57,418 nucleotides of DNA from Acidobacteriota bacterium (GTDB lineage: Bacteria > Acidobacteriota > Terriglobia > Bryobacterales > Bryobacteraceae): assembly GCA_026394075.1 (NCBI GenBank), contig JAPKYX010000282.1, positions 1 through 57,418 on the forward strand, written 5' to 3'. Both the position numbers and the translations under genes were made by a program. Under the pieces are notes generated by a model. That model saw nothing but the letters and a program-made list of their open reading frames with translations. It did no database searches and was not told the DNA's origin. Each line of letters opens with the position of its first letter. Within the stretch, counting starts at the first letter, position 1. Positions 5,773 to 56,019 of this stretch are shown here, in pieces.

Positions 5773-5978
5773 CTACTTCCGCCCTCTGGCGCTGCTTAGG
5801 GGAAACCGCCTATTGGCGTCCCCATCTACAGCGATCTCCTCAGGCATATCGGCGTGAACACGCGGGCCCTAAGTAGCATTGACGGTTGAAATAGCGTTAC
5901 GATAGGCCCAGTCCCCCCAGAACCGCCCAGCTCCACGGTTCCATGGCTGGTGATGCGGAGGTAGGGCAAAGCCCTGGT

Positions 5979-6008
5979 TTGACACTGAGCCGTCATTTCC
6001 GCTACCAT
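5979..6008 (+). promoter_or_regulatory. promoter of rplM-rpsI
   Basis: A perfect -35 TTGACA (5979-5984) is followed after 18 nt by TACCAT (6003-6008). The predicted start near 6015 gives a leader of about 30 nt containing the ribosome-binding site GGAGAGG (6031-6037) before the ATG at 6047. This is the strongest promoter-like sequence I found. Confidence 0.65.
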
Positions 6009-6046
6009 GAAGTGTTTGTAGTTACCGAACGGAGAGGCGTCTGTCC

Positions 6047-6475
6047 ATGAGTACCGTATTTCCGTCTGGGAACGAGCTTGAGCGTAAGTGGTTCATTCTG
6101 GACGCCGAAAACGCCGTCCTGGGCCGCCTTGCTTCGAAGGCAGCCAACCTTTTAATGGGTAAGCATAAGACCATCTATACGCCGTTCCTGGACACTGGCG
6201 ACCACGTAGTGGTCATCAACGCCCAAAAGGTCAAATTGACCGGGCGCAAAGAAGAGCAGAAGATGTACCGGACCCACTCGGGCTATCCGGGTGGCCTGAA
6301 GGAAACTCAGGCTCGCCGGATGCGCGTGCAGCGACCGGAACGAATGATTGAGCTGGCCATTTCTGGCATGCTCCCCAAGACCAAGCTGGGCAAGCAGATG
6401 TACCGGAAGCTGAACGTCTACGCGGGTGATCAACATCCGCACCAGGCGCAGAAGCCGGAACTTCTGGTGAAGTAG
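6047..6475 (+). CDS. rplM: 50S ribosomal protein L13
   Basis: At 142 residues this is the normal length for bacterial uL13. The sequence shows the family landmarks in order: KWFILDAENAVLGRLASKAA near the N-terminus, LMGKHKTIYTPFLDTGDHVVV, the TGRK segment, HSGYPGGLKE, and the C-terminal GMLPKTKLGKQMYRKLNVY. L13 is an early assembly protein of the large ribosomal subunit. The ATG at 6047 is preceded by a clear GGAGAGG, and a strong promoter lies just upstream. The gene is followed 12 bp later by rpsI, the usual bacterial pairing. Confidence 0.98.
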   Translation: MSTVFPSGNELERKWFILDAENAVLGRLASKAANLLMGKHKTIYTPFLDTGDHVVVINAQKVKLTGRKEEQKMYRTHSGYPGGLKETQARRMRVQRPERMIELAISGMLPKTKLGKQMYRKLNVYAGDQHPHQAQKPELLVK

Positions 6476-6487
6476 TAAGAGGATTAG

Positions 6488-6886
6488 ATGGCAGCAACGA
6501 TCACACAATATCTCGCCACCGGCCGGCGGAAGACGTCGACGGCGCGGGTGTTTCTCCGTCCCGGTTCGGGCAAGGTGACGATCAACGATCGCCCGCTCGA
6601 GCAGTACTTCACCACGGAATCATCGCGCAACGCGGTCCGGCAGCCCCTGGCGGCGACTGAGACAGCGGGCCAGTTTGATGTTCTGGTGCTGGTTCATGGT
6701 GGTGGCTATACCGGGCAAGCCGGTGCCATCAAGATGGGCATCGCCCGCGCGCTGTGCGAGTTCAACCTGGAGCTCCGCGGCAAGCTGAAGGCGGAAGGCT
6801 TCCTGACGCGTGACCCGCGCCAGCATGAACGCAAGAAGTATGGGCAAAAGGGTGCCCGTAAGAGATTCCAGTTCTCGAAGCGCTAA
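6488..6886 (+). CDS. rpsI: 30S ribosomal protein S9
   Basis: A 132-residue uS9. The conserved N-terminal [19 protein letters not shown], the [19 protein letters not shown] block and the basic C-terminus ending in [12 protein letters not shown] (the tail that reaches the ribosomal P site) are all present. It is co-transcribed with rplM (12-bp gap, AGAGG just before its ATG) and followed by a strong hairpin terminator, so L13-S9 forms its own transcript, separate from the rpsB group downstream. Confidence 0.98.
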
Positions 6887-41723: not shown

Positions 41724-41743
41724 GGCGGCGAAAGCCGCCTTTT
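41724..41743. terminator. GGCGGC-GAAA-GCCGCC hairpin between caspase and Ig-repeat genes
   Basis: A 6-bp perfect stem with a GAAA tetraloop, followed on the plus strand by TTTT. On the minus (coding) strand the T run is missing, so for the operon it is more likely a partial attenuator or processing hairpin. It overlaps the end of the caspase gene. Confidence 0.4.
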
Positions 41744-44462
41744 ACTGCTTCCTCGCCGGCACCTGCGATTTCAGCTTCGCCCGAACCCGCTTGCGGAGGT
41801 CCGGATCGACAGCCTGGTCGAGAATCGTTTGATAGTGCGCCCGCCCCTCGACGATCCGGCCGCTGGCCTGCAGAACATCGCCCAGTTGCTCGGCCACGAC
41901 AGGGTTGACGGGTTGGGCCGCGTAGGCGATCTCCAAGTGATGAACCGCGTCGGCGGCCCGTCCGGTGGAGGCCAGCAATCTTGCCAGTTCCAGCCGCGCC
42001 GCCAGAAATTCGGGCACGCGCTGGACTAGCTGATCATACTCGGCAATGGCTAATTCGTGCTCGCCGGCACTCTCCAGGGTCTGCGCCAAACTGAGGCGCG
42101 CCCGCGTGTAGCCGGGGTCGATCGCCAGCGTAGCGCGCCATTCCGCCAGCGCTTCCGGCCGCCGCTGCGGTTGCCGGGCCAACACCGAGGCCAGATTGTG
42201 GCGCGCCGGGAGAAACTTGGCGTCGCGCTGCACCGCCTGCCGCAACAACTCCTCCGCCGCCGCCCAATCGCCCTGATCCGCCTCGAGCGCCCCCAACGCC
42301 GTCAAAGGCTCCACCAACTGCGGACCCTTGGCCATAGCCTCGCGGAACCGCTGCGCCGCCAGCTTCGGCTGGTTCAGCTTTTGGTAGATCAAGCCCTGGT
42401 TGTAAGGCAGATATGCATACTGCGGGGCCAGACGAATCGCCTCGTCATAAGTGGCCGCAGCTGCCTCCAGATCCCCCTGCTGCATCTGCAGCAAGGCGCG
42501 GTTGTGGCGCGGGTAGGCCCACTGCGGCGCCCGCCGGATGGCCTCGTCGAAGGCCTTGGCGGCCAACGCAAAATCCGCTTGCTCCAGGTAGGCCGTACCC
42601 AGCGCGTTGTAGATGTAGGATGCCCCGGAATCCAGCCTCAGGGCCGCTTCCAGGCTCCGCCGGGCGGTTGAGTAGTCCTTGTCCAGGATCGCCACCCGCC
42701 CTTCACAGAACTGTAGACGGCTGAGAAGGTACGGGGTTTCGCCATTAATCTGGATGGCCGCGTTGATGGTGCGCGCCGCATCGATAAACTGGCGGCGCGT
42801 GGCGGGCTGTTGGTCGCCCTTCAAATAGTCGAGCAGTGTTTGCTGGTTGCGTTCTTCCAGTGCGGTTCGCAATCTGTTCTCCTGCGCCAATACCTGCTCC
42901 CGGGTCAGCTTGCGGGCGAGTTTCAGCTGCCGGAATGCGGTGAAGGCATTGGCGGAATCGTCCGGTAGAATGCGCCCCGCCCGCAGCGCTTCATCAAAAT
43001 CCACCGCCTGGCGAATGTTCAGTACCCGCACGGCCAGGTCGCGCGAGTGGGAATCCAGGCTCCGGACGCCGTTCAACTGGGCCGCCCCGGGCTCATTCGC
43101 GGCGCCGGGTACGTAGGCCGGCAGGGCGATGCCTGGTTGCCGCGTATTGGCAATCCGTACAGTCGTGTCCAGCGTGCCGCCTTCCCGCGGATGCTGCTTG
43201 TCGACGGTCGCTTCGGCCACTTTCTGTTGGACGTAGGTGGTCATCTCGTTCACCGTCACCTGACCGTCCTGGTCAAAGTCCGCCGCGCCGTTCAATGCCT
43301 CCAGCAGAAAGAAGCTGAATGCCCCGTGGCCGCCGCCGTACTGACGCCCTTCAAAGGAGACTTCGCCGGGACGGGAAGCGGTGAACAGAAACAACTGTGT
43401 ATCGGTCTGCGTCAGCGCATCCAGTTGCGCGTTGATCTTCAGCTTGGCCCGGTCCGGAATTGTCCCGATGGTCCCGCTGCGGCAAGCATCGACAAAGGCG
43501 ATCACGCGCGCCGTCTGCCCCAGTTCATCCCGGATAAACCGCTGCACCACGGGCATGGGCAGGGCGGTGGCGGCCAGATCTTCCGGGTCGCTGTCGTAGG
43601 TGACAATGTAGGCGCCGCGCAAACGCGCGTTGCTCGACTCGACGACCGTTCCATGGGAGGCCATCAACAGAATCACCGTATCCTTTGGTGTCGCCCTCTT
43701 GAGGATCGTTTCAAACGCGGTCTTGATGGCACCAGTGGTGGCCGCCTGGTTCACCAGCACCGTGATGTCTTCCGGCGCCAACCCGCCGCCACGGGGCGAC
43801 CTCAGCAGTTGCTCCATTAACAGCGCGTCTTCGTGGGCATAACGCAACGGACGGATCTGGGCGTTCTGGTACTGCGAGATGCCGATCAGTAGCGCGTAAG
43901 TCTTGCCGCCGATCGTGGGATCGGACTTGGGTGCCCGCCGCCGCACCGCCGCCTCGTCCAGCACAAAAATCCGCTGCGCCGCCAGCTCCGGCACCTCGGC
44001 CTTGATCGCTCGATACGCCGATGCCGCCTCAGCTTCGCGTCCAAACTCCGCCAGCACTTCGGCCTTTGCGATACGAATGTAAAGCGAATCGCCTTGGATG
44101 CCGGCCAGACGCCGGTCCAGTTCCGCTTGACGGGCTGGGGGCAACGCCGGAAGCTCCGCGTGATCGGCTTCGCTGTCCTCGTTGAGCAAGGTGCGGGTTA
44201 AGGCTGCACCATTGAAGGGCGACGCCCCACGATCCCGCGGCACAGCGGGGCAGATCGATTTGCGGCAGTCCACCGTGCGAGCCCCGGGCGAGAGCAGATC
44301 ACCGGGATAAACAAGATCTCCTGCTTTGGCCAGCAGCGGAAGCGCACTGCCCTGGCGCGTCAGCGTCGCTCCTCCGCCGGCCAGCACCAGGGCTGACGGA
44401 AGCTCGCCGGTCGCGGTTTCAGCCGCCATGGAAGCGGCCCATAATAGGATCAGGCCCCGCAT
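41742..44462 (-). CDS. secreted caspase-like peptidase with EF-hand loop and TPR repeats
   Basis: A 906-residue protein (start ATG 44462). A weak signal-like leader (MRGLILLWAASMAAETATG) is followed by a short all-beta region, then a C14-type caspase domain from about residue 185 (TYALLIGISQYQNAQIRPLRY). The catalytic dyad is clear: H270 (LLMASHGTVV) and C327 (IAFVDACRSGTIG). Inside the same domain, about 395-406, DFDQDGQVTVNE is a canonical EF-hand calcium loop. After a linker come at least six TPR repeats (about 600-880). Bacterial orthocaspases cut after Arg/Lys and are often calcium-activated. It sits in an operon before a giant Ig-repeat surface protein and head-to-head with an Oar-like receptor, suggesting regulated proteolysis at the surface (inference). 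Confidence 0.9.
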   Translation of the reverse strand: MRGLILLWAASMAAETATGELPSALVLAGGGATLTRQGSALPLLAKAGDLVYPGDLLSPGARTVDCRKSICPAVPRDRGASPFNGAALTRTLLNEDSEADHAELPALPPARQAELDRRLAGIQGDSLYIRIAKAEVLAEFGREAEAASAYRAIKAEVPELAAQRIFVLDEAAVRRRAPKSDPTIGGKTYALLIGISQYQNAQIRPLRYAHEDALLMEQLLRSPRGGGLAPEDITVLVNQAATTGAIKTAFETILKRATPKDTVILLMASHGTVVESSNARLRGAYIVTYDSDPEDLAATALPMPVVQRFIRDELGQTARVIAFVDACRSGTIGTIPDRAKLKINAQLDALTQTDTQLFLFTASRPGEVSFEGRQYGGGHGAFSFFLLEALNGAADFDQDGQVTVNEMTTYVQQKVAEATVDKQHPREGGTLDTTVRIANTRQPGIALPAYVPGAANEPGAAQLNGVRSLDSHSRDLAVRVLNIRQAVDFDEALRAGRILPDDSANAFTAFRQLKLARKLTREQVLAQENRLRTALEERNQQTLLDYLKGDQQPATRRQFIDAARTINAAIQINGETPYLLSRLQFCEGRVAILDKDYSTARRSLEAALRLDSGASYIYNALGTAYLEQADFALAAKAFDEAIRRAPQWAYPRHNRALLQMQQGDLEAAAATYDEAIRLAPQYAYLPYNQGLIYQKLNQPKLAAQRFREAMAKGPQLVEPLTALGALEADQGDWAAAEELLRQAVQRDAKFLPARHNLASVLARQPQRRPEALAEWRATLAIDPGYTRARLSLAQTLESAGEHELAIAEYDQLVQRVPEFLAARLELARLLASTGRAADAVHHLEIAYAAQPVNPVVAEQLGDVLQASGRIVEGRAHYQTILDQAVDPDLRKRVRAKLKSQVPARKQ

Positions 44463-44489
44463 CTTGTTGAAAGCCCTCTTCCTATTATC
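44440..44489. promoter_or_regulatory. symmetrical divergent promoter (inverted repeat ATAATAGGA)
   Basis: ATAATAGGA (44441-44449) and TCCTATTAT (44480-44488) are perfect inverted repeats with 30 bp between them. Each arm contains a -10-like element for one strand (CATAAT at 44440-44445 on plus; GATAAT for the minus strand, 44484-44489) and AGGA. Both start codons, TTG at 44464 (+) and ATG at 44462 (-), lie inside the spacer. Confidence 0.5.
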
Positions 44490-47400
44490 GCTGGTCCTGG
44501 CCGTGCCCGTGCGGGCACAGACCACGCAGGGGCTCCTGGTGGGGAGGGTCACGGATTCGCGTTCAGGCGCGGCTGTGGCGGGGGTCCGCATCGCTTACCT
44601 CAACCGCGCAACTCACTCATCGGGATACGTCATTTCTTCAACGGCGGGCCGGTTTGCCATTTTCCTCCTCCCGCCCGGAGAGTACCGGTTACGTTTGACC
44701 GCCAATTCCTACCAGGCCCAGGAAGTGCAGAATCTGGAAGTGCCCGTGGCCGGCCGCCGCGAGGTGGACTTTCAACTTCGCCCGCTCCAGGACGTCTGGG
44801 AGATGGGGGAGTACCGGAACATCACACTCCCCAAGTCTGATCTGGTGGTGACGCTCTTCGGGCCAGACCTGGATAGCTCCCGGACGGGGCAGTTCCTGGC
44901 CAACCCCGGCACCGGCGGGGCGCTGGAATCCACCCTGTCCAGTGTGATCGACCCCGTCCAACTGGGCCGCTTGCCGCTGGCCGGACGCGATGCCTACACC
45001 ATGCTGATCACCCAGCCCGGCGTCACGGCCGAAGCCGGCACGGCGCGCGGGCTCGGCCTTTCGGTGAACGGCCAACGCAGTGCCGCCTCGAACTTTTTGC
45101 TCGACGGCGTCGAGAACAACAACGCTCTCGTCACTGGGCCCTTGGCCGCCATCGCGCCGGAAGCGATCCAGGAATACCGGATCTCGACCAACAATTTCTC
45201 CGCCGAGTTCGGTCGCACCAGCGGCTTCATCGCCAACGCCATCACCCGCTCCGGCGGCAATGAGTGGCATGGCCTGGGGTACGCCAATCTCAAAAATGAC
45301 GCCCTAAACGCCAACTCCTTCGAGCGGAACCGGCTGGGCCAACCTCGGACGCCCCAGAAAGAACAACAGTTCGGCGGGCAGGCCGGTGGACGGCTGAAGC
45401 GGGAGCGGCTGTTTGCTTCGCTTGCATTGGAACAGTTGCGCTCTCGCGGGTATGGCGAGTCCCAACCCTACACCCTGCCCGCCACCGGAGCCTGGGGCAC
45501 GCTGGATTCCAGTTCCATCGCCCGGCGCTTGCTGGACCAATACCCCGCGCTCGTCCGGCCCGTATCGCGCAACCTCACCGAGGTGGTGAACCTTCGCCCA
45601 CCGGCCACGCTCAACCGGACGCTGGGCTTGGCGCGGCTCGATGCCAATTGGGGCAGCCAGCGCCTGATGCTGCGCTATTCCGCCAACCGCACCGGCAACC
45701 CCAACTTCATCTGGACCCCCTACCCCGACTTTGTGTCGGGTCTCGAACAGCAGGCCGATAGCATCGCCGGGGCGCTGGAAAGCATGCCCCGCGCCAACAT
45801 GTCGAGCGAACTGCGCTGGGGGTGGAGCCACGACCGGTTGGCCTGGGATCGCGCGCATCCGGAGATCCCGACGCTCTACGAAGGCAGCTTCGGCACCACG
45901 CTGCCCGGCAGCCCCGCCGCCTACGCCTACCGCAACCAGGGCCACTCCTGGCAGATATCCGAGAGCGTCTCGGCGGCCCTGGGTGCCCATATCGTCAAAG
46001 CCGGCGGCGGCGTATTCTGGCGCAACCCCGGCGGCGAGCTGACGGCCGGTCGCGATGGCCTCTTTGTCTTCCAGGACTTCTTGAACTTCTCGGTCGACAA
46101 GCCCGACGTCCTGCAAGCCGCGCTCGACCGCTCGCAACTGCCCCGCTTCGCAACCCCCAACTACCAGCGCCAGTGGCGGCAATCCCAGTGGTACGGCTTC
46201 CTCCAGGACACTTGGCGCATCTCGCGGCAGCTGGTCGTCAACTACGGTCTCCGCTACGACAGCTTCGGCGCGCCCACCCTCAATGGCACCGGCGTCTACC
46301 GCACCGACCGGAACGACTTTCAACCGCGCTTGGGCCTCACCTGGTCGCCCCGGGTAAACTCCCGCTGGCTGGTCCGCGGCGCCTACGGCATCTTTCAGGA
46401 CCGGCCGTTCGACAACCTGTGGCAGAACACCCGCAACAACGGCCTCACCATCGCCAGTCTGGCTGTCGAAGGACGGTTCAACTACAACTACCTCGCGCCT
46501 CTTGCGCAGCAACTGCCCGCGTTCCAAGGCCAGCGGTTCGGCGATGGCTTCCCCAACCTCACCCGCATCGACCCCAACCTCCGCAACGCCTACGTCCAGA
46601 CCTGGTTCGCCGGCGTCCAAGGCACTGCGGGCTCGCATTGGAGCGTTGAGGCTAACACCACCGGTTCACTGGGCCGCAAGCTGATCACCACCGACATCTT
46701 GAACCGCGCCCGTCGCGACAACCCGGCACTACCCGAGATCGCCTGGCGCTCGACGCAAGGCAGCTCGAACTATCTGGCGCTGCACGGCGTGGTCCGCTAC
46801 CGGAACTCGCGCGGCTTTGCGCAGGCGGCCTACACGTGGTCCCACGCGATCGACAATCAGAGCGAGCCGCTGGCGGGCGATTTCTTCGACCTCAACTTCT
46901 CGCGCATCGCCAGTGGAGCCCTTACGGCGGACCGTGCCCGCTTCCTGCGCCCCGGCGATTCTCGTGGGGACCGCGGCAGCGCCGATTTCGACCAGCGGCA
47001 CAATCTGGTGGTCTACTCCGTCTGGCAGTTGCCCGCCCCGCGCGCGCTCCCCTGGCTGCGCGGCATCAGCCTTTCGGAAATGGCCGCCTTCCGCACCGGC
47101 TTCCCCTTCTCGGTGACGGCCAGTGATCGACGAGCCGAAGTCACCGGACCCGCCACCAGCAATGGAGCGGTGGCAGGTGGTGTCCAATGGCTGAACCCGG
47201 CCGCTTTCCGCTTTCCCACCGGCTTCGGCAACTCCGGCCGCAACGCCTTCCGCGGCCCGGGCCTCTACAACGTCGATTTCTCGCTCGGAAAAACAATCAC
47301 CCTCCGCGAGCGGTGGCGCGCCACCCTCCGCGCCGATGCCTACAACGTGCTCAACCACGCCAATCTCAACAACCCGCAGTCGTCACTCTTCTCACCCGAC

Positions 47401-47511
47401 TTCGGCATCGCCCGCTACGGCCGCCGCGCCCGCGAAACCGGCTTCCCCGCCCTAGTGCCATTTGCTGAGAATGCGCGGCAGGTGCAATTGATCGTACGCT
47501 TTGAGTTCTGA
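44464..47511 (+). CDS. Oar-like TonB-dependent receptor with carboxypeptidase-regulatory domain
   Basis: A 1015-residue outer-membrane protein related to the receptor at 15538 but distinct. The order is signal peptide (KALFLLSLVLAVPVRAQ), carboxypeptidase-regulatory domain (GLLVGRVTDSRSGAAVAGVR... GEYRLRLTANSYQ), plug (LPLAGRDAYTMLITQPGV, VNGQRSAASNFLLDGVENNN, NNFSAEFGRTSGFIANAITR), then barrel strands to the terminal aromatic FEF. The start is TTG 44464 (TTG 44467 equally good); ATG 44428 would overlap the divergent caspase gene. The one-bp gap to that gene means the two genes share one regulatory segment. Ligand unknown. Confidence 0.9.
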   Translation: MLKALFLLSLVLAVPVRAQTTQGLLVGRVTDSRSGAAVAGVRIAYLNRATHSSGYVISSTAGRFAIFLLPPGEYRLRLTANSYQAQEVQNLEVPVAGRREVDFQLRPLQDVWEMGEYRNITLPKSDLVVTLFGPDLDSSRTGQFLANPGTGGALESTLSSVIDPVQLGRLPLAGRDAYTMLITQPGVTAEAGTARGLGLSVNGQRSAASNFLLDGVENNNALVTGPLAAIAPEAIQEYRISTNNFSAEFGRTSGFIANAITRSGGNEWHGLGYANLKNDALNANSFERNRLGQPRTPQKEQQFGGQAGGRLKRERLFASLALEQLRSRGYGESQPYTLPATGAWGTLDSSSIARRLLDQYPALVRPVSRNLTEVVNLRPPATLNRTLGLARLDANWGSQRLMLRYSANRTGNPNFIWTPYPDFVSGLEQQADSIAGALESMPRANMSSELRWGWSHDRLAWDRAHPEIPTLYEGSFGTTLPGSPAAYAYRNQGHSWQISESVSAALGAHIVKAGGGVFWRNPGGELTAGRDGLFVFQDFLNFSVDKPDVLQAALDRSQLPRFATPNYQRQWRQSQWYGFLQDTWRISRQLVVNYGLRYDSFGAPTLNGTGVYRTDRNDFQPRLGLTWSPRVNSRWLVRGAYGIFQDRPFDNLWQNTRNNGLTIASLAVEGRFNYNYLAPLAQQLPAFQGQRFGDGFPNLTRIDPNLRNAYVQTWFAGVQGTAGSHWSVEANTTGSLGRKLITTDILNRARRDNPALPEIAWRSTQGSSNYLALHGVVRYRNSRGFAQAAYTWSHAIDNQSEPLAGDFFDLNFSRIASGALTADRARFLRPGDSRGDRGSADFDQRHNLVVYSVWQLPAPRALPWLRGISLSEMAAFRTGFPFSVTASDRRAEVTGPATSNGAVAGGVQWLNPAAFRFPTGFGNSGRNAFRGPGLYNVDFSLGKTITLRERWRATLRADAYNVLNHANLNNPQSSLFSPDFGIARYGRRARETGFPALVPFAENARQVQLIVRFEF

Positions 47512-49871: not shown

Positions 49872-50768
49872 ATGGCGTCCACTTCCCTGGCAGCACCCAA
49901 ATTTAAGATCGGCTTGGTGCAGATGTCCTGCTCCACCGACTCTCAAGAGAACCTCGATAAGGCCGTAGCTCGCGTCCGCGAAGCGGCGGCCCTTGGCGCA
50001 CAGATTGTGTGCCTGCAGGAACTGTTCCGGTCACAATACTTTTGCCGCAAAGAAGACGCGGACCTGTTCGACCTCGCGGAGCCGATCCCCGGCCCTTCCA
50101 CTGACGCCATCGGCGCCGTCGCCAAAGAATGCGGCGTCGCGGTCGTAGCCTCTTTGTTTGAGCGCCGCGCCCCGGGGCTCTATCACAACACCGCGGCGAT
50201 CATCCGCCCGGATGGCACGCTGCAAGGCATCTACCGCAAGATGCACATCCCGGATGATCCGCTCTACTACGAGAAGTTCTACTTCACCCCCGGCGACACG
50301 GGCTTCCTCAACTTCGACACGCCTGCCGGGCGCATTGGCGTGCTGGTCTGCTGGGACCAGTGGTATCCCGAAGGCGCTCGGCTGACTGCTCTGCAAGGCG
50401 CACACGTGCTGTTCTATCCCACGGCCATCGGCTGGCACCCGCATGAGAAGGCGCAATACGGCGAAGCGCAACTGGACGCCTGGCGGACCATCCAGCGCGG
50501 TCATGCCATCGCCAACGGCGTCTACGTGGCGGCCGTGAACCGCGTCGGATTTGAAGGCACGCCCGATTCCGGCCTCGAGTTCTGGGGCAACTCCTTTGTG
50601 GCGGACCCGTTTGGCCGCCTGATCGCGCAAGGCTCGGTAGACCAGGAAGAGATTCTGATCGTCGAGATTGACCCGGCGCACCAGGAAGAAGTCCGTCGCA
50701 ACTGGCCCTTCTTCCGGGACCGCCGCATTGACGCTTACTCCGGGATCACCAACCGATGGCTGGCGTAA
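49872..50768 (+). CDS. aguB: N-carbamoylputrescine amidase
   Basis: A 298-residue nitrilase-superfamily enzyme with the Glu-Lys-Cys triad: E50 (IVCLQELFRSQYF), K123 (YRKMHIPDDP) and C160 (VLVCWDQWYPEGAR). The blocks match N-carbamoylputrescine amidase closely (GDTGFLNFDTPAGRIG, YPTAIGWHPHEK). It cuts N-carbamoylputrescine to putrescine, CO2 and ammonia. The next gene, overlapping by 13 bp, encodes agmatine deiminase, the preceding step of the same pathway. Confidence 0.95.
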   Translation: MASTSLAAPKFKIGLVQMSCSTDSQENLDKAVARVREAAALGAQIVCLQELFRSQYFCRKEDADLFDLAEPIPGPSTDAIGAVAKECGVAVVASLFERRAPGLYHNTAAIIRPDGTLQGIYRKMHIPDDPLYYEKFYFTPGDTGFLNFDTPAGRIGVLVCWDQWYPEGARLTALQGAHVLFYPTAIGWHPHEKAQYGEAQLDAWRTIQRGHAIANGVYVAAVNRVGFEGTPDSGLEFWGNSFVADPFGRLIAQGSVDQEEILIVEIDPAHQEEVRRNWPFFRDRRIDAYSGITNRWLA

Positions 50769-51754
50769 CTGTGACAAATCAAGCAGCGGGTAAGTGGCGG
50801 CTGCCCGCCGAATGGGAGGCGCACGAAGCAACCTGGATCGCCTGGCCGCATGAAAAGAGCGACTGGCCAGGCAAGTTCGCGCCCATCCATTGGGTCTATG
50901 CGGACATCGTCCGGCACTTGGCGCAAGTGGAAGTAGTGCGGATCGTCGTCCAGAACGAAGCGGAAAAGAAGGCGGCCGGGCGGATCTTTGAAAAGTCCGG
51001 CGTCGATCTCGATTGGGTGGAGTTCTTCATCGCCCCCACCAATCGCAGTTGGCTCCGCGACACCTCGCCGATCTTTGTCCGCAACGAAGCGGGCGAGGTA
51101 GCGGCGACGGACTGGAAGTTCAACGCCTGGGCCAAGTACCCGAACTTCGAGCATGATGACCAGTTGCCCGCCTTTGTCGCGAAGAAGCTGAAGATGCCGC
51201 GGGTCGCCACGAAGGTGGTGCTGGAAGGCGGCGGCATTGATTCCAATGGCGCCGGACGCTTGTTGACCACTGAAGAGTGGCTGCTCTCGGACGTCCAGGT
51301 GCGCAACCCAGGCTTCACTCGCGAAGACTACCAGCGCGTCTTCGCCCAGCATCTCGGCATTACGGAAGTGATCTGGCTGGACCACGGCATTGCCGGTGAT
51401 GACACGCACGGCCATGTGGACGACCTGGCCCGCTTCGTCGCCGAAGACACCGTGGTGACGCTCGATGTCGGCGACGCCGCAGCTCGTCTCAAGAAGGCCG
51501 GCCTGCGCGTCGTGAAACTGCCGCAGCCACAGCCGGTCACCTTCGACGGCCAGTTACTCCCGGCTAGCTACGCGAACTTCTACATCGCCAACGGCCTGGT
51601 GCTGGTCCCCACCTTCACTGACCCGGCGGACCGCCTGGCGCTCTCGACGCTCGCTAAACTGTTCCCGGACCGCGAAGTGGTCGGAATTCCCTGCCGCGAC
51701 CTGGTGCTGGGGCTGGGCACGCTGCACTGCATGACCATGCAGCAACCGGCATAG
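50756..51754 (+). CDS. aguA: agmatine deiminase
   Basis: A 332-residue member of the guanidine-modifying (PAD-like) superfamily that turns agmatine into N-carbamoylputrescine. Motifs seen are EWEAHEATWIAWPH at the start, RDTSPIFV (conserved Asp), VLEGGGIDSNG, DDTHGHVDDLARFV (conserved His and Asp), and the C-terminal catalytic cysteine C325 (GLGTLHCMTMQQP). It overlaps aguB by 13 bp, so they form one operon for putrescine formation from arginine. No arginine decarboxylase is present here. A MITE-like repeat follows 6 bp after the stop. Confidence 0.95.
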   Translation: MAGVTVTNQAAGKWRLPAEWEAHEATWIAWPHEKSDWPGKFAPIHWVYADIVRHLAQVEVVRIVVQNEAEKKAAGRIFEKSGVDLDWVEFFIAPTNRSWLRDTSPIFVRNEAGEVAATDWKFNAWAKYPNFEHDDQLPAFVAKKLKMPRVATKVVLEGGGIDSNGAGRLLTTEEWLLSDVQVRNPGFTREDYQRVFAQHLGITEVIWLDHGIAGDDTHGHVDDLARFVAEDTVVTLDVGDAAARLKKAGLRVVKLPQPQPVTFDGQLLPASYANFYIANGLVLVPTFTDPADRLALSTLAKLFPDREVVGIPCRDLVLGLGTLHCMTMQQPA

Positions 51755-51760
51755 CTCTGG

Positions 51761-51899
51761 GGTGGCGCAGGCTGTCAGCCTGCAGGCGGACTTCAGTCCG
51801 CCCCTGCGAGTATGACGACGACTGGAAATGGTTCCGGCGGTTGCGCGGCCCCGACCAGCGGGACTAAAGTCCCGCTGCAGGCTGACAGCCTGCGCCACC
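51761..51899. mobile_element. MITE-like palindromic element with perfect 25-bp inverted ends
   Basis: Positions 51761-51785 and 51875-51899 are perfect reverse complements of 25 bp. Inside lie two further self-complementary blocks: GGCGGACT/AGTCCGCC (51785-51802) and AGCGGGACT/AGTCCCGCT (51857-51876). The ends themselves fold too (GGCTGTCAGCC). The 139-bp element has no coding frame, lies just after aguA and resembles a non-autonomous transposable repeat or RAYT-type element. A target duplication is not evident. Confidence 0.7.
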
Positions 51900-51978
51900 A
51901 CGAGCTCGTCAATGCGACCTAAGTTGTAAAAAGATATTCCAGAAGCTGCATATAACCCGGCGCATACGGTAGTTTTCA

Positions 51979-52008
51979 TTGGTTAGTACCCAGCCAGCTT
52001 GATATCCT
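51979..52008 (+). promoter_or_regulatory. candidate promoter of the propeller-kinase gene
   Basis: TTGGTT (51979-51984) followed after 18 nt by TATCCT (52003-52008), with the GTG start only 10 nt later, so the message would have a very short leader or none. Confidence 0.4.
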
Positions 52009-52018
52009 GACCTGGACC

Positions 52019-55000
52019 GTGCGCATTTGGGTACTGATCTTAGTCGCTGTCTCCGCTGCCGCCCAAAGCTTGCATTGGGAGCATCTGGGCGTCACCTCCG
52101 GCATCAACTATGCGTTTGCCTTTGAGCAGACACCCGATGGGCGACTGTGGATTGGGACGCAGGATGGGCTGTGGGAGTATGACGGCCAAACCTTCCTGCG
52201 CATCGGACCGGAACGCGGAATCCCACCGGGACCCGTTTCTTATGTGGCCGTCAGTGGCCAGGAGCTCTGGCTCTGTCACGCCGAAGGCATCTTCCGCCAG
52301 GAGGGCGAACGGTTCGTCCGCGTCGCCAAACCGGGCGTCGAAGCCGCAACCATCGCCGCCGATCCACAGGGCAAGGTCTACTTCGCCGCCCCCCACCTGC
52401 ACATCGCCCGGCGAACGCCTCAAGGCTGGCAAGTGCGCGAGGAGCCAACGCTGGTCCCCAATGGCACCGTCCGCATCGGGACGGCCGGCGACATCTGGTT
52501 CGGCTGCGGCCAGGAGATCTGCCAACTGGAAGCCGCCACGCTGCGGCAACTGCCCGCCAAGCTGCTGCCGAAGCGTTGGGGCTTGAAGGAGGGCGTCCCG
52601 GCCAAGCTGTGGTGGGATGCGGCCATGGACGGAAACGGCATCCTCGTCGGGACCGTAAGAGGAAACGATCCGTTGTGGCGAAAGTTCCCGGGGCGACCGA
52701 TGCGGCTGGAAGGAAATCTATTCGATACAACGCGGCCTGTCGGAAGCTTGTGGTTCCCCTACTGGCTTAGTGCCCGGAAGGGATTTCAGTCACTCGATCA
52801 ACCTCAGTTGCCCATGTTGATTACGAGCCTAATCGCCTTCTACCGCGATCGGCACGGCACAGTCTGGTCGGCGGACAGTGGCCGGGGAATCTGGCGCGCG
52901 GCGAAGGATCCTGGGGTGGAAGCATGGGGCAAGCTTGACGGCTTCTCCGACTCCCTCATCTTCCAGCAGGGCCGAATAGCCAATGGTAGTCTGATTGCCG
53001 CTACCCCGAAGGGACCGCACCAACTACCGAATGGTAGCCACCATTGGTTGCCGTTCGCGAAGAACTGGCCCCTGACAACCTTGGCTCCCTTACCGGGAGG
53101 AGGAGCGCTGCTTGCCTTCGTCCGGCACACAGGTCTTCAGCGCGTTGACTCTGCCGGTCGAATCACCGGAGAGATACTCACGGCCACGGGCGATCGCCTA
53201 CGGCCACAGCGCTTGATGCCGGACGCGCAAGGCGGAGTGTGGATCTCTACTCAGGAAGAGCTCTATCGCCTCCCTCCCGGCGGGTCACGTGCTAGCCGAG
53301 TGGAACTGGTGCCGGGCCGGTGGGACCACCGTGACATCCTCATCGACAAGAAAGGCACTGTCTGGGTGGCCTTCCAGAAAGGCTTGGCGCGCTTGGAGAA
53401 TGGCCGCTGGCGCATCTTCTCCACGCAGGATGGTCTGAAATCGGACTACACGCGCTGCCTGGCTATGGACGCGAGTGGACACCTTTGGGTGAGCTACCGC
53501 ATGGCAATTGGCTTCTCGAAGTTGACCATCGAAGGCGACCGCCTTTCCGCACAGCACTTCGATACCGCCAGCGGCCACGGGTCCAACAGCACCTTTCTGC
53601 TGGGGGCGGACCGGCGGGGGTGGGTGTGGCGGGGCACCAACGATGGCATGTACGTCAAGCGCGGTGCCAGCGACGCGCCGGGGGACTGGCTCCACCTGAC
53701 TACCTTCGACGGCTTGCCCGCCAATGACATCAACATCTTCTCCTTCTTTGAGGATCGCGACGGCAGCGTCTGGTTTGGAACGGTCGGCGGCAACGTCCAC
53801 ATTGGACCGGCGGCGATTGAGGCGATTGCGCGGCAGCAGTTTCGGGTCCGCGTCACCCAAGCGGGCTTGGCTGATGGGGTGCTCTCCGCCCAGGTCAACC
53901 CCATCTACCTGGGCCGGCGGGACCGGCTGCAGTACCGCTACCGGGTGGCGGGCACCGACACATGGACCACCACCTTCTCGCCGGAACTCAAGGTGGCCGG
54001 GCTGCCTTACGGCGACCATTCGCTCGAAGTCCAGGCCCGGCGCACTGGGGCCGTCTGGTCAGAAAGTGCGGCGCTGCCGTTCCTCTATCCGCGGCCGTGG
54101 TGGCAATCCGCACGGGCACTGCTGTTCTACGCTTTATCCGGTGTGGGTATCGCGGCATGGTGGCGCAGTATCAGCAACCGGCGCCGGCGGGAGCAGCAAC
54201 AGTTCGAGGCCGAGAAGGCTCTGTTTGTGGAATTGAGCGGCCTTCCGGCGGAGCAGCAGGAGACTCGTCTGCGGCAGGTGGCGCCCGAACTCGCAGAGCG
54301 GGTCCGCCGCCTGCTGTCTTCGCAGTCCGCCGGCGAAGACCGTGACGTGATCCTCAACAACCGCTATCGGCTGGGGCCGAAGGTGGCGCAGGGCGGCATG
54401 TCCACCATCTACCGCGCTTGGGATCAGCGGCTAGCCGGACGGCTGACCGCCATCAAGATCTTGCGCCCCGATCTGGGCGACCCTGAATGGCTGATCCGGC
54501 GCTTTGAGCTGGAGCGTGAGGCGCTAAGCCGCATCTCGCACCCGGGCGTCATCTCGGTGCTCGATGCCGGGCAGACGCCGCAGGGCTTGGCCTTTCTGGC
54601 CATGGAGTTCGTGGAAGGCCCGACGTTGCGGCAGGTGTTGACCGCGGGGCCGCTCACCCCCGCGCGCATCGCCCGGCTGCTGCGGCAAACAGTGGAGGCT
54701 CTGGATGCCGCCGACACCGCCGGAGTGACGCACCGGGATTTGAAGCCCGAGAACCTGATGCTGCGCCGGGCGGGCGAACCGGATGAGCAGATGGTGGTGG
54801 TGGACTTCGGCATCGCCGTGGTGCGCAACCCGGGCAGTGAGACCCTGGTGCTGTCCCGGGCGGCGGGTTCACTGGACTACATGGCGCCGGAGCAGACCCA
54901 GGGCCGCGCTACGCCCGCGGCGGACCTCTATGCCCTGGGCCTGATCGTCTTTGAGATGTTGACCGGGCAACGGCCCGCGCAGCTCGATCTGGGCCACCAT

Positions 55001-55186
55001 GCCGACTTTGGCGATGATGTCATCCGCCACCTGAGTGGCTCCTGGCCGGTGGCGCTGGCGGAGCTGGTCGGTGCGGCCCTGTCATTCGACCCCAAGACGC
55101 GGCCCGCCTCAGTGAAGGTGTGGGGTGAGGCCGTGGCTCGGGAATTGGAGCGGCCACTCGCCGCCCGGAGCCACTCCGAAAGTTAA
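52019..55186 (+). CDS. transmembrane sensor: two-component-type propeller and Y_Y_Y domain fused to a Ser/Thr protein kinase
   Basis: A 1055-residue protein (GTG start). After a signal (MRIWVLILVAVSAAAQ) comes a propeller of the two-component regulator type (about 20-620; blades such as LWIGTQDGLWEYDGQTF, VWISTQEELYRL, HLWVSYRMAIGFSKL, FEDRDGSVWFGT). A Y_Y_Y-like Ig domain follows (about 630-697, LQYRYRVAGTDTWTT), then one membrane helix (about 699-716), then a short helical linker. The cytoplasmic end is a Hanks-type kinase with lysine K813 (AIKIL), HRDLKPEN with D907, DFG at 929 and APEQ. The glycine loop is irregular (VAQGGMSTIYRAW). This sensor is normally linked to histidine kinases. The ECF sigma gene converges with it. 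Confidence 0.93.
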   Translation: MRIWVLILVAVSAAAQSLHWEHLGVTSGINYAFAFEQTPDGRLWIGTQDGLWEYDGQTFLRIGPERGIPPGPVSYVAVSGQELWLCHAEGIFRQEGERFVRVAKPGVEAATIAADPQGKVYFAAPHLHIARRTPQGWQVREEPTLVPNGTVRIGTAGDIWFGCGQEICQLEAATLRQLPAKLLPKRWGLKEGVPAKLWWDAAMDGNGILVGTVRGNDPLWRKFPGRPMRLEGNLFDTTRPVGSLWFPYWLSARKGFQSLDQPQLPMLITSLIAFYRDRHGTVWSADSGRGIWRAAKDPGVEAWGKLDGFSDSLIFQQGRIANGSLIAATPKGPHQLPNGSHHWLPFAKNWPLTTLAPLPGGGALLAFVRHTGLQRVDSAGRITGEILTATGDRLRPQRLMPDAQGGVWISTQEELYRLPPGGSRASRVELVPGRWDHRDILIDKKGTVWVAFQKGLARLENGRWRIFSTQDGLKSDYTRCLAMDASGHLWVSYRMAIGFSKLTIEGDRLSAQHFDTASGHGSNSTFLLGADRRGWVWRGTNDGMYVKRGASDAPGDWLHLTTFDGLPANDINIFSFFEDRDGSVWFGTVGGNVHIGPAAIEAIARQQFRVRVTQAGLADGVLSAQVNPIYLGRRDRLQYRYRVAGTDTWTTTFSPELKVAGLPYGDHSLEVQARRTGAVWSESAALPFLYPRPWWQSARALLFYALSGVGIAAWWRSISNRRRREQQQFEAEKALFVELSGLPAEQQETRLRQVAPELAERVRRLLSSQSAGEDRDVILNNRYRLGPKVAQGGMSTIYRAWDQRLAGRLTAIKILRPDLGDPEWLIRRFELEREALSRISHPGVISVLDAGQTPQGLAFLAMEFVEGPTLRQVLTAGPLTPARIARLLRQTVEALDAADTAGVTHRDLKPENLMLRRAGEPDEQMVVVDFGIAVVRNPGSETLVLSRAAGSLDYMAPEQTQGRATPAADLYALGLIVFEMLTGQRPAQLDLGHHADFGDDVIRHLSGSWPVALAELVGAALSFDPKTRPASVKVWGEAVARELERPLAARSHSES

Positions 55187-55206
55187 GTTTGAGCAGGACC
55201 CCAAAA

Positions 55207-55252
55207 GACCGCTTGCTGGCGCTACCGAGCCACTTGCCGTGAAGGAGGGGGC
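55207..55252. repeat. degenerate copy of the 47524 palindromic repeat
   Basis: It shares the order GACC-CTTGCTG-CGC...GAGCCAC-CCGTGA-GGAG with 47524-47587 but lacks part of the central stem. It lies between the convergent kinase and sigma-factor genes, as the other copy lies between two convergent genes. Confidence 0.5.
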
Positions 55253-55273
55253 TTTCCGGTTTGCTACAGAGAA

Positions 55274-55780
55274 TTAACCCGTGATGCGGTCGCGCAGCCA
55301 CGTCTCGGAGAACTTCAACGAAGTCCGGACGGCGGAGACTGTCATACCGGACAACTCGGCTGTCTCCCGCAAGGTGTGACCTTCAAAGATATGGAGGCGG
55401 ACGATCTGACCCGCCGCCGGATCGAACTGGCATAGCTTCTCGTAGGCTTGGCGGACGGCTAGCATGCCGGGGTCGTCGGGGAGGACGACACTCAGTAAAC
55501 GGTCGGTGGGGGTGCGCTTGATTGCGCCGCGCCGCCGGCCGCGGTCGATCAGAATCCGGCGCATGTTGTTCACCACCACACCCATCAGGTGTTGCGGGTT
55601 GCTGAAGCCACCTTCGTAACCCAGCAGCCTTAACAGACTTTCGTTCAGCAGGGCGGTGCCGGACAACGTACCAGACACCGGCTCGCGAGCGACCAAGCCG
55701 CGTGCAATGCGGCGCAGCACCGGGTAGGTCTCTTCAAGAAATGGCGGCGGGGCGGGCGGCTCCATTCCGGATGAAGTCAT
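55274..55780 (-). CDS. ECF-family RNA polymerase sigma factor (acidobacterial TIGR02999-like)
   Basis: A 168-residue sigma factor beginning at ATG 55780 (ATG 55765 possible). The region-2 part (ETYPVLRRIARGLVAREPVS and TALLNESLLRLLGYEGGFSN) has the T-x-L-x-x-E pattern of the TIGR02999 group. The NNMRRILIDRGRRRGA segment follows, and region 4 ends with VRLHIFEGHTLRETAELSGMTVSAVRTSLKFSETWLRDRI. Many such sigma factors lie next to Ser/Thr kinases in Acidobacteria, as here. No anti-sigma gene is visible, so the kinase may control it by phosphorylation (inference). TATACT, a good -10, lies 11 nt before the start. Confidence 0.9.
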   Translation of the reverse strand: MTSSGMEPPAPPPFLEETYPVLRRIARGLVAREPVSGTLSGTALLNESLLRLLGYEGGFSNPQHLMGVVVNNMRRILIDRGRRRGAIKRTPTDRLLSVVLPDDPGMLAVRQAYEKLCQFDPAAGQIVRLHIFEGHTLRETAELSGMTVSAVRTSLKFSETWLRDRITG

Positions 55781-55842
55781 AGAGTATTGCCAGTATAGCG
55801 ATTCGCCGGACAAGCTACTGGCCACTCACCCCTGAGAATTTA

Positions 55843-56019
55843 CTAGCAGCACTTGGCGCGCGCGTACTTTTCCTTCATCCGCGCTTCACTGAGGCGCCGC
55901 CATTCGGCGGCGGAGGGGGCGGCACCGTGGTGGGCCAAGTGACGCTCATAGGCGGTCTCATCGGAGAGCTCGCGGAGGATGCCGCGGAGGATGGCGAAGA
56001 AGTTCTTGACTACGCTCAT
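55843..56019 (-). CDS. ybdD: YbdD/YjiX-family protein (DUF466), partner of CstA
   Basis: A 58-residue protein beginning ATG 56019 ([20 protein letters not shown]), with the family features [12 protein letters not shown] in the middle and a terminal KCC, as in E. coli YbdD. The start codon overlaps the stop of cstA (ATGA). In E. coli, CstA/YbdD and BtsT/YjiX form coupled pairs for pyruvate or peptide uptake under carbon limitation, and the small protein is needed for transport. An upstream in-frame start inside cstA would add 30 residues with no family likeness. Confidence 0.9.

Follow-up and report, generated by a model that had tools for sequence, protein, structure and literature searches.

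How might a membrane-bound Ser/Thr kinase with a sensor of the hybrid two-component system (HTCS) type pass on its signal, and is the extracytoplasmic function (ECF) sigma factor encoded beside it part of the answer? The question is raised by two adjacent genes in a 57,418-nucleotide stretch (the window) of contig JAPKYX010000282.1 from an Acidobacteriota bacterium of the Bryobacterales (GCA_026394075.1; genome of 5.77 Mb in 302 contigs). We consider it probable (about 0.72) that they form a two-gene receptor-kinase/sigma switch, in which the kinase activates the neighbouring sigma factor by phosphorylation, most likely at Thr57, with the HTCS-type sensor as input. The observed basis of this reading is the domain architecture, the intact catalytic residues, the lost acidic patch of the sigma factor together with an acceptor Thr, the constant pairing of both genes in Bryobacterales/Terriglobia, the shared structure of their trees and their joint presence or absence.

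The receptor kinase and the adjacent sigma factor

The features of the two genes are as follows.

52019..55186, forward strand: membrane receptor kinase, 1055 aa (GTG start 52019, stop 55186; open reading frame (ORF) call, Pfam, AlphaFold model and structural alignment)
52019..52066, forward strand: signal peptide, residues 1-16 (boundary set by eye; putative cleavage site)
52070..54094, forward strand: periplasmic sensor, residues 18-692 (Reg_prop match; HTCS-sensor fold in the model)
53921..54073, forward strand: Y_Y_Y domain (sub-threshold PF07495 match; beta strands 609-690 in the model)
54107..54172, forward strand: transmembrane helix, residues ~697-718 (hydropathy and sequence; Arg-rich stretch after the helix)
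54344..55153, forward strand: Hanks-type kinase domain, residues 776-1045 (K813, E832, H905-D907, N912, D929)
55274..55825, reverse strand: ECF sigma factor of the TIGR02999/Sigma70_ECF type, 183 aa (alternative ATG start at 55780, where the initial annotation, made from the sequence alone, had ended)
55655..55657, reverse strand: codon of Thr57 (numbered from the GTG) in the SGTA motif (alignments; position of the ECF43 phospho-threonine)

The receptor kinase is ordered as signal peptide, double beta-propeller plus Y_Y_Y sensor, one transmembrane helix and C-terminal Hanks Ser/Thr kinase. The most hydrophobic 19-mer of the whole protein begins at residue 1, where the AlphaFold model (whole chain, 15-row alignment, mean predicted local distance difference test score (pLDDT) 78.7, predicted TM-score (pTM) 0.54) has a helix at residues 2-14. 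The model is beta-rich to about residue 595, followed by a beta domain (609-690), helices across 694-767 and the kinase. Its confidence is low at residues 216-271 and 705-722; the transmembrane region has helices in the model, yet with a pLDDT below 50 at residues 705-722. Reg_prop was matched in Pfam with an E-value of 2.3e-18, whereas Y_Y_Y (PF07495) stayed below its cut-off of 26.6 bits both in the Pfam scan (18.3 bits) and in the genome search (23.5 bits). This weak match is backed by the fold, as the alignment with HTCS sensors extends through residues 692/694. The sensor model (residues 18-692/694) matches the extracellular parts of the HTCS sensors BT4663 and BT3049 at a Z-score of about 28 (3v9f: Z 28.8, root-mean-square deviation (rmsd) 4.5, 544 aligned residues; 4a2l, heparin-sensing BT4663: Z 28.4, rmsd 5.8, 611 aligned). 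The structural-alignment table for the full-chain model consists mostly of kinases; the top three Foldseek rows are structures of the BT4673 sensor, with low whole-chain TM-scores of 0.25-0.35.

Pfam detects neither a histidine kinase nor a receiver or AraC domain in the protein; it reports Pkinase instead (E-value 1.8e-32, residues 784-992). PknB (5u94) aligned to model residues 774-1044 with a Z-score of 30.3 (rmsd 2.1, 250 aligned). The catalytic Lys (K813), Glu (E832), HRD Asp (D907), Asn (N912) and DFG Asp (D929) are all present and invariant across 15 aligned fusions; judged by these residues, the kinase looks active.

The two genes are convergent and separated by a gap of 87 bases. The sigma factor matches Sigma70_ECF (PF07638) with 72.7 bits (cut-off 21.1) and TIGR02999 with 95.1 bits, below the cut-off of 126.15. 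In its region 2.2, DAED is replaced by SGTA, a motif without an acidic residue and with Thr third. The alignment of hidden Markov models between the sigma family and Escherichia coli sigma-E places p-t-a-L-v-n-e over V-P-D-V-V-Q-E, and directly ahead of this segment sigma-E has a gap of six residues; the family Ala occupies the position of the sigma-E Asp, because p-t-a lies on V-P-D. Among the 23 sigma factors found beside kinases of this architecture (window included, the split sigma gene of L153 left out), the third motif position holds Thr in 18, Ser in two (L102, L107) and neither in three. Beside the sigma gene lies an ORF of 88 aa without a Pfam or NCBIfam match, which we take from its C-terminal motif to be ybdD, followed by CstA; no anti-sigma domain was found in these nearest sigma-side neighbours.

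The initial annotation had described a propeller/Y_Y_Y sensor of the hybrid-histidine-kinase type fused to a Ser/Thr kinase, next to a sigma factor without an anti-sigma partner, and had named an inactive kinase domain as a counter-argument. The Pfam matches and the modelled fold agree with this description, as do the genes next to the sigma factor, and the catalytic residues are intact. The conserved Ser/Thr which it proposed as a check in the sigma factor is present at the acceptor position of 20 of the 23 partners and missing from three.

Families TIGR02999 and ECF43 presumably overlap. By its family, its kinase neighbour, the lack of an anti-sigma factor and the SGTA motif, the window sigma factor fits a kinase-activated sigma factor of the ECF43 type. 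Phosphorylation of an ECF sigma factor by a neighbouring Hanks kinase is described for EcfP/PknT of Vibrio parahaemolyticus (PMC8999054) and EcfK/PknS of Xanthomonas citri (PMC13147305), and the principle is also summarised in PMC8103513. The corresponding motifs are STTA in EcfP, QATE in EcfK and QTTA in the ECF43 consensus, the third residue being the phospho-threonine (PMC8999054, PMC13147305). These pairs share with the window pair a sigma gene beside a Hanks kinase gene, a lost or altered DAED and an acceptor Thr; PknS, however, has a periplasmic TPR-rich domain, whereas the window kinase has an N-terminal HTCS-type double propeller, its kinase domain is C-terminal and the genes are convergent.

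Pairing and co-inheritance in relatives

The kinase protein served as query for relatives in 150 genomes of the family, five candidates being scored per genome, which gives no frequency. From the matches listed, 20 stretches were picked by match range or frame length, G013:C68 also for its listed sigma neighbour; this one proved not to be a propeller-kinase. Fifteen of the 20, from 11 other genomes, are propeller-kinases (all but L106, L108, L109, L113 and L114), among them L101, truncated by the contig start, and L102, which has no phmmer sensor match at an E-value of 1e-3, yet aligns through the sensor. A sigma neighbour at a distance of at most 566 bases was found for all 15, compared with three of 16 other kinases from the same search (L047, L050, L059; wide flanks re-read, four of the 16 near a stretch end) and five of 14 further long kinase frames of the same list, none of which had a sensor match (Fisher's test, p 3e-6 against the 16 and p 2e-6 against the pooled controls, 8/30). 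Regarding propeller proteins without such a kinase (L042, L046, L060, L062), none of the four had a sigma gene within about 1.5 kb of the match.

A propeller-derived pattern, which was built from the fusions and therefore picks up their relatives, yielded 16 loci over the named genomes, i.e., 16 metagenome-assembled genomes titled Bryobacterales, Bryobacteraceae, Bryobacter, Terriglobia or Acidobacteriia. Kinase and sigma factor were present at 15 of these loci (in split frames at L153), whereas L160 stops at the contig end; eight of the 16 were already known from the kinase-protein search. A further propeller-kinase, L137 (G102), has sensor and kinase in two frames. The distinct set of window, the 15, L137 and seven new loci thus comprises 24 testable propeller-kinases (23 if L103 and L152, which are 96-98% alike, are merged), all of which have a sigma gene within 0.6 kb; because of this 24/24 count the pairing is not attributed to chance. 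Among the 30 top sigma matches of the family survey, 22 (window included) had a kinase in the locus, i.e., within 1.5 kb on each side. The initial annotation had taken missing co-occurrence in relatives as evidence against its proposal and had suggested a survey of other propeller-Ser/Thr kinase fusions; the pair co-occurs throughout, and the survey gives 24 fusions with a sigma gene in the Bryobacterales/Terriglobia set and one, L138, without.

The profile search of the phylum covered 396 genomes at an E-value of 1e-110 with two candidates scored per genome, and again gives no frequency. L138 (6392-10246) encodes a propeller/Y_Y_Y sensor, a long linker and a C-terminal Ser/Thr kinase, and is apparently a separate fusion of the same parts. 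L175 (5218-8121) and L178 (3239-6190) are C-terminal Ser/Thr kinases without a propeller sensor and without a sigma gene nearby.

The 24 pairs are convergent in 19 cases, on the same strand in three (L099, L104, L158) and divergent in two (L102, L107). Their gene ends commonly overlap, by between a few and some tens of bases; the window pair has a gap. Convergence as a one-off was rejected, since it occurs in 19/24 propeller pairs versus 0/16 pairs of a sigma factor with an N-terminal kinase (Fisher's test, p 3e-7); outside this count are L142 (C-terminal kinase, same strand), L136 (sensor-less, convergent) and the second kinases of L104 and L108.

Pairwise distances of kinases and sigma factors, uncorrected for the species tree, were correlated with r 0.89 for 23 pairs and r 0.77 for 19 pairs (without L098, L146, L147 and L152; permutation p 1e-4); L153 was excluded from distances and trees. 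Groups common to both trees are L095 with L101, L102 with L107, L104 with L158, and L096, L098, L137, L146 and L147 with L136. Both trees also have a group of ten around L097/L103, while the window and L099 each stand alone. Several genomes hold two unlike pairs, e.g., G067 (L095, L104) and G111 (L107, L111). A single clade of the 23 propeller-partner sigma factors alone was rejected (approximately unbiased test, p-AU 0.003); once the L136 partner is added, the set lies on one side of a branch, with 11 other sigma factors on the other (support 91/92, not starred). A single origin of the fusion was likewise discarded, as the kinase tree needs four changes and its starred branches force at least two. 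L136 (6560-7453) is a sensor-less kinase of 297 aa, convergent and overlapping with a sigma gene of the same subfamily (5829-6581); the kinase tree and the sigma tree place this pair among the same propeller pairs.

Genomic context of the pair

Within the three genomes of the genus that were compared, the pair is present at this site only in the window genome.

51755..55843, no strand assigned: segment with both genes and the repeat pair upstream of them, missing from the corresponding site of the same-genus genome G110 (blastn breakpoints 51754 and 55844)

The blastn match of G110 to the window stops at 51754 and resumes at 55844, with six bases between; G070 has at the site a different stretch of about 3 kb, in which neither protein has a tblastn match. 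The kinase and sigma genes come or go together at this site, by a gain here or a loss there. A recent foreign island was rejected by composition (GC 0.640 in the segment versus 0.624 and 0.637 in the flanks). Upstream of the kinase gene, at 51767-51893, lies a pair of palindromic 17-mers (GCAGGCTGWCAGCCTGC), 110 bases apart. The genome has 16 such sites, namely seven pairs about 97-112 bases apart and two singles, which resemble a REPIN-type repeat. The sigma-70 scan gave no promoter-like site, and one terminator-like site was found versus 3.3 expected.

Elsewhere in the source genome, 15 matches to TIGR02999 were found, six of them with an E-value of 3e-26 or better (C270, C37, C94, C123, C186 and, in the window, C42). 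Five of these six adjoin a Ser/Thr kinase gene, whereas C37 has none in its 14-kb stretch. Seen from the kinase side, five of 15 loci have a sigma gene (two matches on C26 being one ORF), and three of the ten without lie near a stretch end. The other four pairs (L115, L117, L118, L119) resemble the window pair in combining a TIGR02999-type sigma factor with a Hanks kinase, but their kinase domain is N-terminal and is followed by TPR (L115, L117), PD40 (L118) or no named domain (L119), and three of them are on the same strand and one is divergent. A sigma/kinase pair is therefore ordinary in this genome, the sensor is not. L126 (8248-11271, source genome) and L142 (4224-7334) encode C-terminal Ser/Thr kinases in proteins with a weak, below-cut-off match to the histidine kinase PrsK of the XrtA system (and GAF in L126), which may be a further case of a Ser/Thr kinase fused to a sensor of the histidine-kinase type; a sigma gene adjoins L142 but not L126.

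The pair is flanked by genes for agmatine deiminase and N-carbamoylputrescine amidase on one side and by the CstA-side genes on the other. The former (49872-51754) are likely genes of putrescine synthesis, both NCBIfam matches being below cut-off. A caspase-domain (Peptidase_C14) protein with TPR repeats is encoded at 41742-44591. Of 59 flanking proteins picked at related loci, 30 were scanned: two are TonB/CarboxypepD-type receptors (L104, L105), two have F5/8 type C domains (L095, L099) and 15 are without a match; no glycoside hydrolase or SusD was found among the 30 at an E-value of 1e-5. Glycan enzymes adjacent to SusC/D-type uptake genes, as in a polysaccharide-utilisation locus, were not found beside the window pair or among the flanking proteins scanned. 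The control of sugar-uptake receptors, which the initial annotation had proposed for the pair, finds no counterpart in these neighbours.

The proposed switch and its alternatives

In the proposed sequence of events, the HTCS-type double propeller outside the membrane would bind a ligand, which may well be an oligosaccharide or some other fragment of a polymer. The choice of an oligosaccharide is no more than a reasonable guess by analogy with HTCS sensors of such build, which bind oligosaccharides (PMC3243724). Binding would, via Y_Y_Y and the single transmembrane helix, bring kinase domains together and activate them; the kinase would then phosphorylate the neighbouring ECF sigma factor, most likely at Thr57 in region 2.2. 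By comparison with ECF43 sigma factors, the phosphate would restore the negative charge absent in SGTA (versus DAED), and the sigma factor could bind RNA polymerase.

Several observations weigh against this reading. Two-gene switches are not usually convergent, and the distances were correlated without a species-tree control. L138, from another acidobacterial family, has no such sigma gene within 1.5 kb and is a counter-example to strict pairing. Position 3 is neither Ser nor Thr in the motifs of L095 (GSID), L104 (SAQD) and L158 (YSGD), each of which ends in Asp and has a Ser in one of its first two positions. This argues that more than phosphorylation at position 3 is involved in this group; judged by their motifs, these sigma factors may use another residue or be partly active alone. 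Finally, phosphorylation sites in the linker of EcfK can matter too, T106 being reported as critical (PMC13147305).

Alternatively, the kinase could act on other sites of the sigma factor (the linker of domains 2 and 4, a neighbouring Ser) or on its amount or stability, Thr57 not being the switch; the EcfK linker sites and the three partners which keep their kinase neighbour without an acceptor Ser/Thr speak for this. As 20 of the 23 partners retain Thr or Ser at the acceptor position, and SGTA has no acidic residue, its Ala aligning with the sigma-E Asp, we consider it unlikely. The pair could also regulate glycan uptake through the TonB-dependent receptor encoded at 44326-47511, some 4.5 kb upstream of the kinase gene, which would suit a sensor architecture for which oligosaccharide binding is reported (PMC3243724). 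The 4.1-kb segment present or absent together with the pair does not include this receptor, however, and glycoside hydrolases and SusD are missing from the flanking proteins scanned, which leaves this explanation a slim chance. Slimmer still is the chance that kinase and sigma factor are mere neighbours, the kinase having other substrates: L138 and the several substrates usual for Hanks kinases (PMC13147305) agree with it, whereas the 24/24 pairing, the matching subclades and the joint presence or absence do not.

Concerning novelty, activation of the sigma factor by its kinase was presented in the initial annotation as a new signalling route, but the same route has been published for EcfP/PknT (PMC8999054) and EcfK/PknS (PMC13147305). 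The HTCS of Bacteroidetes (BT4663, BT3049, BT4673) share with the window kinase a periplasmic Reg_prop double-propeller plus Y_Y_Y sensor in a membrane protein, whereas the window output is a Hanks kinase and a separate sigma factor. PknD of Mycobacterium tuberculosis is likewise a receptor Ser/Thr kinase with an extracellular beta-propeller; it has one six-bladed propeller (residues 403-664; PMC3601408), whereas in the window protein the HTCS-type sensor is far larger, lies at the N-terminus and precedes the kinase. No description of a Reg_prop/Y_Y_Y-Ser/Thr kinase fusion was recognised among the papers listed by the literature searches, although the ECF43-kinase survey of Iyer et al. 2020 may name this sensor type and slash spellings were probably missed in one search. 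The switch principle itself is already known; what seems not to have been reported before is its combination with an HTCS-type sensor, a C-terminal kinase and a convergent layout.

For the receptor-kinase/sigma switch, we give even odds to a wider interpretation, namely that Bryobacterales redirected HTCS-type polymer sensors to a sigma factor, in a two-gene cassette which moves or is lost as a unit and carries a ligand signal through Ser/Thr phosphorylation to RNA polymerase. The cassette would have a dedicated sigma subfamily and a conserved tail-to-tail layout, and the side branches L104/L158 and L095, with Asp replacing the usual phospho-acceptor, would depend on a different residue or a different route for switching. 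If true, this joins the oligosaccharide-type sensor known from gut Bacteroidetes to the kinase-activated sigma factor, two modules that are well studied yet separate. The 24 pairs would represent a compact, testable series in soil bacteria, in which the natural variants without the usual phospho-acceptor would allow a direct test of whether phosphorylation in region 2.2 is the general switch in such pairs.

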